Below are positions 1 through 11,034 of a stretch of 64,000 nt of DNA, piece by piece. Position 1 is the stretch's first letter, and each line of letters opens with the position of its first letter. The DNA lies in contig JABHRS010000005.1 of NCBI GenBank assembly GCA_018670085.1, forward strand, positions 1-64,000. The letters are read 5' to 3'. The notes below the pieces were generated by a model. That model saw only the letters and a list, made by a program, of their open reading frames with translations, searched no databases and was not told where the DNA came from. Both the position numbers and the translations under genes were made by a program. Source of the stretch: an archaeon (GTDB lineage: Archaea > Nanobdellota > Nanobdellia > Woesearchaeales > GW2011-AR9).

Positions 1-1608
1 TGCAGTGTTTGAGACAGCTGTATTTGTAAGAGCATCATAACAAGTAAGATATGTTGTGAACTCATCTGCAGTATTGGGTGCGTTTAATCCACTATCAGTC
101 CAATCATCACTTGTGATTGCAACAGTTGATTCAACGTTTGGTGCATAAGCTGTGTATGTTCCAAGACCAGTTGAATCTAAACTTACTTCACAAAAGATGT
201 AGTCAGAAACTGCTTCAACATTAGTAAATGAAAGAATAGCTTCTGAAAAACTTGACCAAACATATGCTTCACTGGTTAATTCTACAACAGGTGCTGTAGT
301 ATCAATTGTAAAGTCAATCTCACTAGTTGCAGTGTTTCCACTTAAGTCAGATGATTCTACTACAATTGTGTAAGTCTCATCTGGAACATCACTGGTTGTT
401 ACAGTGTCAGTATATGATCCGCTGAAACCAGAGGCAATTGAAGAATCTTCGACTATATTACCTTGGCTATCTGTGATAGTTATACTAAAACTATCTGCGC
501 CAATGTTATCAGTCACAGTCACATCAATATCAAAAGTAATTGTACTAGCACTCATTACAACATTATCATTTGGTGAATTAAAAGTAATGGTAGGCGCTAA
601 TGTATCAATTACTGAAAAAGTATAAGTTTCTGAACTTACTGTATACATCTCATCATAACAATCAATTTGATAACTGTAATCACCTAGTTCATCATAAGTG
701 CTTGCTGATTCAAAAGCTGTAGTTGTCAATTCAGTAATTTCAAATAAGTAATCCACAACTGAGGTGTCTGGTCCAGTTATGTCTAAAAGACAGTATAGAG
801 TTAGACTATCAACAAAGTTATCATCAATTGTAGCTTGAATTGTATATGAATTTTCGAATACAGTAGCATCAGTTACAGCAACAATAGTTGGTGCAACAGT
901 ATCATAGTAGATTGAGTATGCTAAGGTTTCAACATTTCCTACAATATCAGTTGCTGTGATTGTAGCATCAATTGTACCTTCATCAAAACTAGATGGATCA
1001 AAATCTGTAACCCAAATATCTACCCCGTTTTCATCCACAGAATCAAAACCTAAGGGACTTGTTTGTGTATTTGAACCGTCATCAAAGAAAATTGAAACTG
1101 AGTCTACTGCACTATTATCAGACACATAAACACTAAGAGTTGATACAGCACTTAGAGTGTTTGGAGTAATAGCATAGTTTTCTTCAACAATGTTATCTTC
1201 AAAACTTGGACTACTTGCATCTATAATTACATCAGAGAAAGTTGAACTTGATAATATATTACCTGACATATCTTGGACAGCGATAAAAAATGAGATTGTG
1301 TCGCCGTCATTATATTGACTAAGGATAGATAAATCACCTGTTGTGAAATAACCATTCTCTTCTTGTAGGCTATCACTTGACCAACTGATAACTGCTGGTG
1401 TGATCCCATCAGTTGTTTGCAGTGTCACGCTAAAAAGTAAATCATCGGCATATACATGCATGATAGACTCTTCGGATAAATATCCACTTTCAGTTGAGAT
1501 ATCATAATTTCCATTTTCAAATTGGATATCATCAATTGTGATCGCAGCTACCGATGGTAGTGCAATCATTAATACCATAAATACTAACAACATTTTAATT
1601 ATATTCAT
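1..1608 (-). CDS. Large secreted/surface protein with repeated Ig-like/cadherin-like domains (partial, C-terminus beyond window)
   Basis: Minus-strand reading frame from ATG at 1608 (MNIIKMLLVFMVLMIALPSVAAITIDD..., signal peptide) preceded by AAGGTGA SD; open to window edge; Thr/Ser/Asp-rich beta-repeat composition. Not in the ORF track because it runs off the edge. Confidence 0.8.
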   Translation of the reverse strand, partial: MNIIKMLLVFMVLMIALPSVAAITIDDIQFENGNYDISTESGYLSEESIMHVYADDLLFSVTLQTTDGITPAVISWSSDSLQEENGYFTTGDLSILSQYNDGDTISFFIAVQDMSGNILSSSTFSDVIIDASSPSFEDNIVEENYAITPNTLSAVSTLSVYVSDNSAVDSVSIFFDDGSNTQTSPLGFDSVDENGVDIWVTDFDPSSFDEGTIDATITATDIVGNVETLAYSIYYDTVAPTIVAVTDATVFENSYTIQATIDDNFVDSLTLYCLLDITGPDTSVVDYLFEITELTTTAFESASTYDELGDYSYQIDCYDEMYTVSSETYTFSVIDTLAPTITFNSPNDNVVMSASTITFDIDVTVTDNIGADSFSITITDSQGNIVEDSSIASGFSGSYTDTVTTSDVPDETYTIVVESSDLSGNTATSEIDFTIDTTAPVVELTSEAYVWSSFSEAILSFTNVEAVSDYIFCEVSLDSTGLGTYTAYAPNVESTVAITSDDWTDSGLNAPNTADEFTTYLTCYDALTNTAVSNTA

Positions 1609-7246: not shown

Positions 7247-7307
7247 TAATTTTACTAAACATTTTAACATTCTAAGTATTTCTCTTTTCAAGTGACTACA
7301 AATGTTT

Positions 7308-7446
7308 TTATACTAGCTAGGATCTTACGATATTACCTTTTACGAATTCGTAAGAAGAGGTTTTCGTGCTAGAAAAACCAGCTGGTTGGGGTTTTCGAAC
7401 CTTGTAAAAACCTGTCTCGAAAGTTTCGTAAAAGGTATCTTTTTTC
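7308..7446 (+). ncRNA. Candidate structured small RNA or leader RNA upstream of PIG-L/GT4 genes
   Basis: TATA-like TTATACT at 7308; 13-bp perfect terminal helix 7334-7346/7425-7437 (TACCTTTTACGAA/TTCGTAAAAGGTA); internal hairpin GGTT-TTCG-AACC 7390-7401; T6 run 7440-7445. Confidence 0.55.
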
Positions 7447-7513: not shown

Positions 7514-8254
7514 ATGAGTCAAAAGTTACAAAATGCTACAAAAAATCAAGAGACAGTATTTGTTTTCAGTGCGCACTCTGATGATTTTGTGATTGGTTGC
7601 GGTGGAACTATTGCAAAATATGCCAAGCTTGGAATTAACGTTCGATGTTATGTATTCAGCTATGGAGAAAAATCACACCCATGGATGGCTGCTGCCGAAG
7701 TTAAAAAGATGCGAGCCGATGAATGCTACGCTGCCAGTGAAGTTTTAGGGTGTAATACCAAAATTTTTGATTTAATGGAACTTAGCATTCGCTCAGATGC
7801 CAAATTGAAAGGCACAGTTAAATTTTTAGAAAAACAAGTTGAAAAGTATAGACCAAGTAAAATATTTGTGCACAGCAAAGAAGATCCCCATCCTGATCAC
7901 AAGGACGTTCATGCACTAAGTATGCAACTAATAAAGAGAATTGATGAAAAATTAATCCCTGATGTTTATGTATACTCTGTATGGAACCCTTTTGAGTTTA
8001 AAACTACTTATCCTTCAATGTTCGTTGATGTGAAAGATAATTTTGAAACAAAACTTGAAGCTATGCGAAAATTTCCAAGCCAAACAGTTCATGTAATCTT
8101 TCCAGTGTTTTTATTGCTTTTTAGAGGATTCAAAGATGGATTTTTCAGTGGACATAAACTTGCAGAGAAATTCTTTTTAGTTAAAACAAGTAGTATTACA
8201 GCAGTCACAGCAGTTAAAAAAAAGATTAAATTAAAAGAAAAAAGATTAAAATAA
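7514..8254 (+). CDS. PIG-L/LmbE family deacetylase
   Basis: FVFSAHSDDFVIGCGGTIAKYA (AHxDD) and HSKEDPHPDHKDVH (HPDH). Confidence 0.85.
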   Translation: MSQKLQNATKNQETVFVFSAHSDDFVIGCGGTIAKYAKLGINVRCYVFSYGEKSHPWMAAAEVKKMRADECYAASEVLGCNTKIFDLMELSIRSDAKLKGTVKFLEKQVEKYRPSKIFVHSKEDPHPDHKDVHALSMQLIKRIDEKLIPDVYVYSVWNPFEFKTTYPSMFVDVKDNFETKLEAMRKFPSQTVHVIFPVFLLLFRGFKDGFFSGHKLAEKFFLVKTSSITAVTAVKKKIKLKEKRLK

Positions 8255-10045: not shown

Positions 10046-10065
10046 ATACTGTGATCTGGACTCAT

Positions 10066-11034
10066 ATGGCTTTTTTTGCGCGAAAAATATCTGAAATTGA
10101 TGACAGCCTTAGTAACTTAAGGGAAAGTTGCCTTTATGATGAAGGTTTAACTCGCAGAATTACTGCTGCCTTAATTGGTGATTCATTATCTCATTCCGAT
10201 GCAATTGAAGAAAATTCTAGCTCTCAAGTGACTTTAAAAAGATTAGAAGAAGCTTGGAACTTTGCTGTAGTTAATATAAATGAAGATTTATCCCATTCAT
10301 CCATATGTGATATTGCAGCAAAAGTTGAGCCAATTAATCATAGTTATAGAACTGACAATGTTTTGATACCAGGTTTTGATAGGGTGGTTAGATCAGGTGT
10401 TAGACCGATAAAAATTAGGCGAGAAATGAATAACCTAATTTATCACATCAAAGACGAATCTAACCAAGATGCACCTAGTCTAAAGGCAGCAGAGATAAGT
10501 CTGTATGGCCTGTTTATTCACCCATTTCAAGATGGAAATGGAAGGACATTTAGGTTACTTCATAATTTGTTATTGTACAAAAATGGTATTCCACCAGTTG
10601 TGATTAGAAAGTCTGAGAAGAGACCCTATAAGATGTTAATTGCTGCAGCACAAGATGGTTTCAATGAGAGAGTGGGCCAGGCAGATATGTTCTCAGCAAA
10701 TAGATCTTTTGGAGAGATGAATTATTTTGGATTTATGTTGGACAAAGTACAAGAGAGTATAGAAGAGTTATCAGGTAGGTACACAAAATTTAGGATGTAT
10801 GATGTGGAGTGCTATTTTAAAGGCAATGGTAAACAACTGCATGGTGTTCGTGAAATGCTTCGCCGTGGTTGTACTGCAGGTGGTTGGGTATTTAAATCAT
10901 CACTGGATTTGCCAAAAAGAACTGTTCGAGTTGTCACTGATGCACCGTTTGGAATTGTTAATTCAAACATGTTAAACTACACAAAAGATAGATCATGGTT
11001 TAAAGGATATGAACTAATTAAAAGGAGAAAATAA
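10066..11034 (+). CDS. Fic/DOC family protein
   Basis: HPFQDGNGRTFRLLHNLL is the Fic motif HPFxDGNGRxxR; N-terminal SDAIEEN resembles the inhibitory helix of class II Fic proteins. Start moved from 10051 to in-frame ATG 10066 on TATA spacing. Confidence 0.88.
   Translation: MAFFARKISEIDDSLSNLRESCLYDEGLTRRITAALIGDSLSHSDAIEENSSSQVTLKRLEEAWNFAVVNINEDLSHSSICDIAAKVEPINHSYRTDNVLIPGFDRVVRSGVRPIKIRREMNNLIYHIKDESNQDAPSLKAAEISLYGLFIHPFQDGNGRTFRLLHNLLLYKNGIPPVVIRKSEKRPYKMLIAAAQDGFNERVGQADMFSANRSFGEMNYFGFMLDKVQESIEELSGRYTKFRMYDVECYFKGNGKQLHGVREMLRRGCTAGGWVFKSSLDLPKRTVRVVTDAPFGIVNSNMLNYTKDRSWFKGYELIKRRK

Follow-up and report, generated by a model that had tools for sequence, protein, structure and literature searches.

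What is the element at positions 7334 to 7437 of the window, which here means the whole 64,000-nucleotide stretch of archaeal DNA that was analysed? On the plus strand, the TATA-like sequence TTATACT (7308-7314) lies 26 nt 5′ of position 7334. Two perfect 13-bp arms occupy 7334-7346 and 7425-7437, and a run of six T residues follows at 7440-7445. A preliminary description had placed these elements correctly and offered two readings of them, either a free-standing small RNA or a leader with switch-like behaviour ahead of the PIG-L deacetylase gene at 7514. The first reading stands and the second is not supported; the bulge-helix-bulge (BHB) splice motif, the tRNA-intron core and the palindrome of the predicted dimer had been missed. 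The locus is a real small-RNA gene, and computation identifies the gene itself, its structure, its BHB motif, its kinship to tRNA introns and its self-complementary sites. It is probably a promoter-driven gene derived from a tRNA T-loop intron, from whose transcript an endonuclease would release a 71-nt, probably circular core that would form a dimer. The features of the locus are as follows.

7291-7314, plus strand: promoter, AGTGACTACAAATG (BRE-like) and the TATA box TTTTTATACT, seen in the sequence, with about 20 nt between its end and the start of the first helix
7334-7346, plus strand: 5′ arm of the outer (host) helix, pairs with 7425-7437 and replaces the tRNA T-stem position; compensatory changes in every counted pair
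7347-7350, plus strand: 5′ strand UUCG of the 4-bp BHB central helix, pairs with 7418-7421; covaries
7351-7352, plus strand: 5′ bulge UA, predicted 5′ cut after 7352; a 2-nt bulge and then a covarying helix in most rows of the alignment
7353-7423, plus strand: predicted intron or core RNA, 71 nt, from in silico splicing at equivalent sites
7353-7355, plus strand: AGA, pairs with UCU at 7415-7417; AGA/UCU, AGG/CCU, GGA/UCC or AAC/GUU in relatives
7358-7363, plus strand: 5′ strand AGGUUU of P2, pairs with AAACCU at 7408-7413; covariation
7366-7369, plus strand: site 1, a self-complementary tetramer, GUGC in the window (including a G-U pair)
7376-7387, plus strand: site 2, the 12-nt palindrome AACCAGCUGGUU, predicted intermolecular pairing site; contains the top covarying pair of the alignment
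7388-7403, plus strand: P4, a variable hairpin GGGGUU-UUCG-AACCUU; compensatory changes in 3 of 3 counted pairs
7404-7411, plus strand: conserved GUAAAAAC, partly within P2; near-invariant across relatives
7418-7421, plus strand: 3′ strand CGAA of the BHB central helix; covariation
7422-7424, plus strand: 3′ bulge AGU, predicted 3′ cut after 7423; AGN in 41 of 43 sequences
7425-7437, plus strand: 3′ arm of the outer helix; sequence and covariation
7440-7445, plus strand: T6, probable U-rich terminator, from the sequence; 24 of 33 free-standing copies have a T4 in the 25 nt that follow

The element is present as a single copy in the genome of the window. When related genomes were searched at the DNA level, the core turned up in G002 (79% identity over 151 bp, promoter included) and in four further genera, where it lies away from PIG-L. 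The window's archaeal family is represented by 51 genomes; a first covariance model, built from six copies, detected the element in 38 of them and in 23 of the 26 good ones. Roughly one family genome in four had no match, through incompleteness or divergence. Broader models added at least six genomes outside the family, five from other families of the same order (G150, G044, G043, G049 and G050) and one from another order (G442), a set from which more remote members may be missing since large searches score few candidates per genome. Left out of the family were L081 and L067:1793, which are T-loop introns that differ in sequence, and a match at G442:C12 that looks like coding sequence. The family contains two paralogues, type A (that of the window) and type B, which separate on the RNA tree (bootstrap 96, SH-aLRT 92); the tree was built from short sequences and is weak apart from this split. 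Each type occurs at most once per genome within the family, and the core is nearly invariant over about 30 genera. In G009 the type-A copy is followed downstream by a fragment of a further copy, from its 3′ half (CTCGAAAGTTTTGATTGCTGAAA; L005, around 505-530, minus strand). Variant type-A copies in G026 and G062 (L075 1473-1577 and L076 1482-1585) have the 5′ half of the host hairpin further upstream, with extra sequence inserted.

Searches of the window against Rfam 15, at gathering and relaxed thresholds, returned nothing credible. In the loci of 12 relatives only tRNAs were matched, with zero matches to the free-standing element or the intron core. Archaeal RNase P RNA (RF00373) was considered and rejected, its match lying elsewhere in the genome (G000:C18:15413-15798, archaeal type). 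RNase P RNA of this type and the archaeal splicing endonuclease mark the genomes as archaeal, and their small size may point to DPANN. A remnant of a group I intron was also rejected: the element is too short and has no match, and the 39 published archaeal group I introns, which likewise occur in small-genome archaea such as Woesearchaeota and Pacearchaeota, are much longer and are all in rRNA (PMC6125680).

The RNA of 7334-7446 folds at -32.4 kcal/mol (z -2.8), and the minus strand of the element also folds (z -5.2). As the folding energy beats that of shuffled sequences on both strands, energy alone settles neither the strand nor the reality of the structure. A minus-strand RNA was considered for its better fold and was rejected on the orientation of the host tRNAs in relatives and on the TATA boxes, both of which assign the element to the plus strand.

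Covariation among homologues, which the preliminary description had proposed as a check, is strong. In an alignment of 43 sequences, both sides change in 17 of 21 pairs and 88.6% of cells pair; the covariation score is 0.613, versus 0.232 after shuffling and at most 0.151 with the partner slid. With 39 sequences including other families, the values are 0.641, 0.215 and 0.174, respectively. The outer helix, the 4-bp central helix, the 3-bp helix after the 2-nt bulge, P2 and the P4 hairpin are supported, which bears out the 13-bp terminal helix and the GGUU-UUCG-AACC hairpin noticed earlier. The other internal hairpin proposed then, GGUUUUC/GAAAAACC (7359-7365/7372-7379), is replaced in the family consensus by pairing of GGUU with AACC at 7409-7412. 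Two suggested alternative folds, a 14-bp palindrome at 7340-7353 and pairing of 7324-7330 with 7348-7354, are absent even from the same-genus relative G002 and thus look like chance by-products.

The outer helix, a 3-nt AGN bulge, the 4-bp UUCG/CGAA helix and the 5′ bulge together constitute a BHB motif. All four central pairs are formed in 33 of 43 rows, in variants such as UUCG/CGAA, UGCG/CGCA, UACG/CGUA, UGUA/UACA and CGUG/CACG, and compensatory changes are found in free-standing copies. The 5′ bulge of 2-3 nt (2 nt unless an A-U pair opens) makes this a relaxed BHB, and in a few rows (G062B, G026B, G001A and G030C) the motif is partly degraded or misaligned.

The kinship of the element was revealed by 14 relatives, in which the core is an intron at position 59/60 of a tRNA T-loop, 56-77 nt long and once 122 nt. 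Position 59/60 is a known tRNA intron site (PMC4090602). In silico excision of the core between TTCGAA and T (C in place of T in one G003 copy) restores a 7-nt T-loop and a tRNA recognised by ARAGORN in G008, G019, G003, G035, G066, G027, G150, G050, G049, G043 and G442, with three tRNA-hosted copies in G050. The cut in the 5′ bulge of these copies is at the site equivalent to that predicted in the window. The restored tRNAs are Gly(UCC), Gly(GCC), Glu(CUC), Lys(CUU), Arg(CCU) and Arg(UCU). Copies in G016, G069 and G015 were recognised as tRNA-hosted by visual inspection; the caller assigns them another isotype or none, probably because of further introns. Without removal of the core, ARAGORN reported zero tRNAs in L006 and L009. 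The tRNA-Gly genes on the minus strands there (L006 around 1480-1645 in G008 and L009 around 665-850 in G016) have two or three introns, in the D-loop, anticodon loop and T-loop, and are invisible to ARAGORN when unspliced. The 122-nt version (L083 1310-1468, G035) carries an extra long hairpin inserted beside the palindrome. Introns at the same T-loop position, unrelated in sequence or shrunken, are also observed in tRNA-Gly-like genes at L081 1482-1556 (G022) and L067 1793-1910 (G013). The window copy, spliced in silico, yields only a hairpin with a 7-nt loop and not a tRNA. Of 41 genomes, 40 encode the archaeal-type tRNA-splicing endonuclease, that of the window among them (PF01974 match at G000:C27, E = 2.6e-30).

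In the window and in more than 30 other copies the element is free-standing, with no tRNA found at the element by ARAGORN. The free-standing small RNA proposed earlier is confirmed by the promoter: of 33 free-standing copies, 31 have a TATA-like motif, with the peak at -26 relative to the helix, whereas control windows contain one in 4-9 of the 33 and shuffling gives a mean of 8.75. In most type-B copies, AGTGGTAAGAAA directly precedes the TATA box. This box (e.g., L079, around 1420-1445) is longer than the usual BRE and may mark co-regulated RNA genes. No genome of the family has type A in both settings: it is tRNA-hosted in 9 genomes and free-standing in about 13. Free-standing copies lie directly downstream of tRNA-Gly in G034, G031, G009, G012, G030 and G062; in G034, type A and type B form a tandem array with tRNA-Gly(UCC). 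Because free copies adjoin tRNA-Gly and this tRNA-Gly has no T-loop intron in G034, G021 and G001, it is likely that the T-arm of tRNA-Gly was duplicated with its intron, gained a promoter and was then separated from the tRNA.

The palindrome shows a distinct pattern. By background-corrected mutual information, the adjacent columns 61-62 rank first in the whole alignment (1.47, versus 0.83 for the best helix pair), and neither covaries notably with any other column. They are the central dinucleotide of site 2 (CCANNUGG), self-complementary in all 43 sequences if the single UG is counted (GC 21, AU 12, UA 6, CG 3, UG 1). It has changed at least 17 times on the RNA tree, as between AU in G074 and UA in G012 of the same genus. 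Outside the family the flanks of site 2 change too and palindromes are kept (AACCGUACGGUU and AACCUUAAGGUU). The site 1 tetramer, which precedes site 2, is AGCU, ACGU, CGCG, GCGC or GGCU in relatives; it is self-complementary in G001 by a one-base shift, needs a G-U pair in the window, and loses self-complementarity in G044. Adjacent nucleotides cannot pair with each other within one molecule. The predicted partner is therefore a second molecule, and we infer from the sequences that the working form would be an RNA dimer, while self-complementarity could reflect another constraint. In G050, some copies are not self-complementary; at each of the two sites, the intron of its tRNA-Gly is the exact reverse complement of the intron of its tRNA-Lys. 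At site 2 the duplex of Gly with Lys has an energy of -17.4, against -8.6 and -11.2 for the self-pairs. This one genome is only suggestive of heterodimer pairing between the two introns.

Together, these data are best explained by the following course. The gene at 7334-7437 would descend from a position-59/60 T-loop intron, probably of tRNA-Gly, and its transcript would fold into a 13-bp host hairpin, the BHB splice motif and the conserved core. The archaeal tRNA-splicing endonuclease would cut both bulges, after 7352 and after 7423, and the freed 71-nt core would probably be ligated into a circle; we infer both splicing and circularity from established archaeal tRNA splicing. Segments 7366-7369 and 7376-7387 would pair with the same segments of a second molecule, giving a two-fold symmetric RNA dimer. 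Selection would keep the core and not the host, whether the core sits inside a tRNA or has a hairpin gene to itself. The same core in either host, at most once per type per genome in the family, speaks for the core as the product. A bolder version, which we hold tentatively as quite possible, is that the intron itself is the functional product, a small, probably circular dimer with two contacts that left the tRNA and kept its splice sites, with a heterodimer of the Gly-UCC and Lys-CUU introns in G050.

Two alternatives, both unlikely and about equally so, concern splicing and function. The elements could be a selfish lineage of BHB introns spreading among tRNA T-loops, the free-standing copies being functionless dead-end landings or duplicated tRNA remnants. 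Related introns do occur in different isotypes, three of them in G050 alone, free-standing copies adjoin tRNA-Gly, and transposition of tRNA introns is known in Thermoproteales (PMC4090602). However, the positioned promoters, the compensatory changes in helix, BHB and hairpin of free-standing copies, the limit of one copy per type in a family genome and the near-invariant core are at odds with dead ends. Alternatively, the free-standing RNA could remain unspliced, the BHB-like bulge serving as a protein-binding site and as a splice site only when tRNA-hosted. The complete promoter-to-terminator unit of the hairpin, the weak BHB of a few copies and the conserved arm CCAG...CUGG of type B itself fit such an RNA, but types A and B both keep the 59/60-type geometry, the AGN bulge and the covarying central helix, and the splicing endonuclease is present.

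It is very improbable that the palindromes act on DNA, as a site for a dimeric protein inside the gene. Dimeric DNA-binding proteins typically recognise self-complementary sites, and the reverse-complement variants of G050 would be one DNA site, yet a protein would favour particular bases, whereas all four self-complementary dinucleotides occur, others being absent except one UG, and the sites fall where a covarying RNA is unpaired. Least probable of all, to the point of being negligible, is a riboswitch or attenuator for PIG-L. The element lies about 70 nt upstream of this gene on the same strand and is also upstream of PIG-L in G001 and G005, but it is far from PIG-L in G017, G008, G009 and G016, the alternative folds are not conserved, and the homologues are tRNA introns. 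It thus has neither the fixed position upstream of one gene family nor the conserved alternative folds of a riboswitch or leader, and the shared location by PIG-L is attributable to descent from a tRNA-Gly-linked locus. Also in the window, and in the same archaeal genome, a Fic/DOC-domain protein (PF02661) is encoded at 10051-11034.

The intron-derived small RNA gene resembles several known systems in part. A box C/D guide RNA is encoded in the archaeal pre-tRNA-Trp intron and is likewise a functional RNA in a tRNA intron; no C/D boxes are seen in the core of the element. The non-canonical BHB introns at position 59/60 share with it the position, the BHB motif, the predicted endonuclease substrate and the presence in several tRNA isotypes (PMC4090602). 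By the features tested the element falls under these BHB introns, and it would deserve more if the released dimer is the working product. In Thermoproteus, BHB cleavage and circularisation produce the SRP RNA, a functional RNA other than a tRNA, which is a precedent for circularisation here (PMC4731332), although the element is a different RNA without an Rfam match to SRP RNA. GOLLD, ROOL and OLE form homo-oligomers through intermolecular contacts, similar to the predicted dimer, but they are large bacterial RNAs (PMC12286853), whereas the element is archaeal, about 71 nt and intron-made, and its dimer is a prediction. In the literature searched, no 59/60 BHB introns were found that share a single conserved structured core across dozens of genera, have self-complementary sites or exist as free-standing promoter-driven versions, and a text search found no description of such an RNA within the papers searched. 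Examples are known of each of the three kinds, BHB introns, circular RNAs and RNA homo-oligomers, and we know of no conserved RNA predicted to be all three while alternating between tRNA intron and independent gene.

The element would add a new RNA family to those of little-known archaea, and would be an instance of a tRNA intron as a conserved functional RNA and not a by-product. The stages from intron to gene would be visible in it: in the tRNA, beside the tRNA and free. Covariation of adjacent nucleotides would be a sequence-only signature of RNA dimerisation, directly testable and searchable elsewhere.
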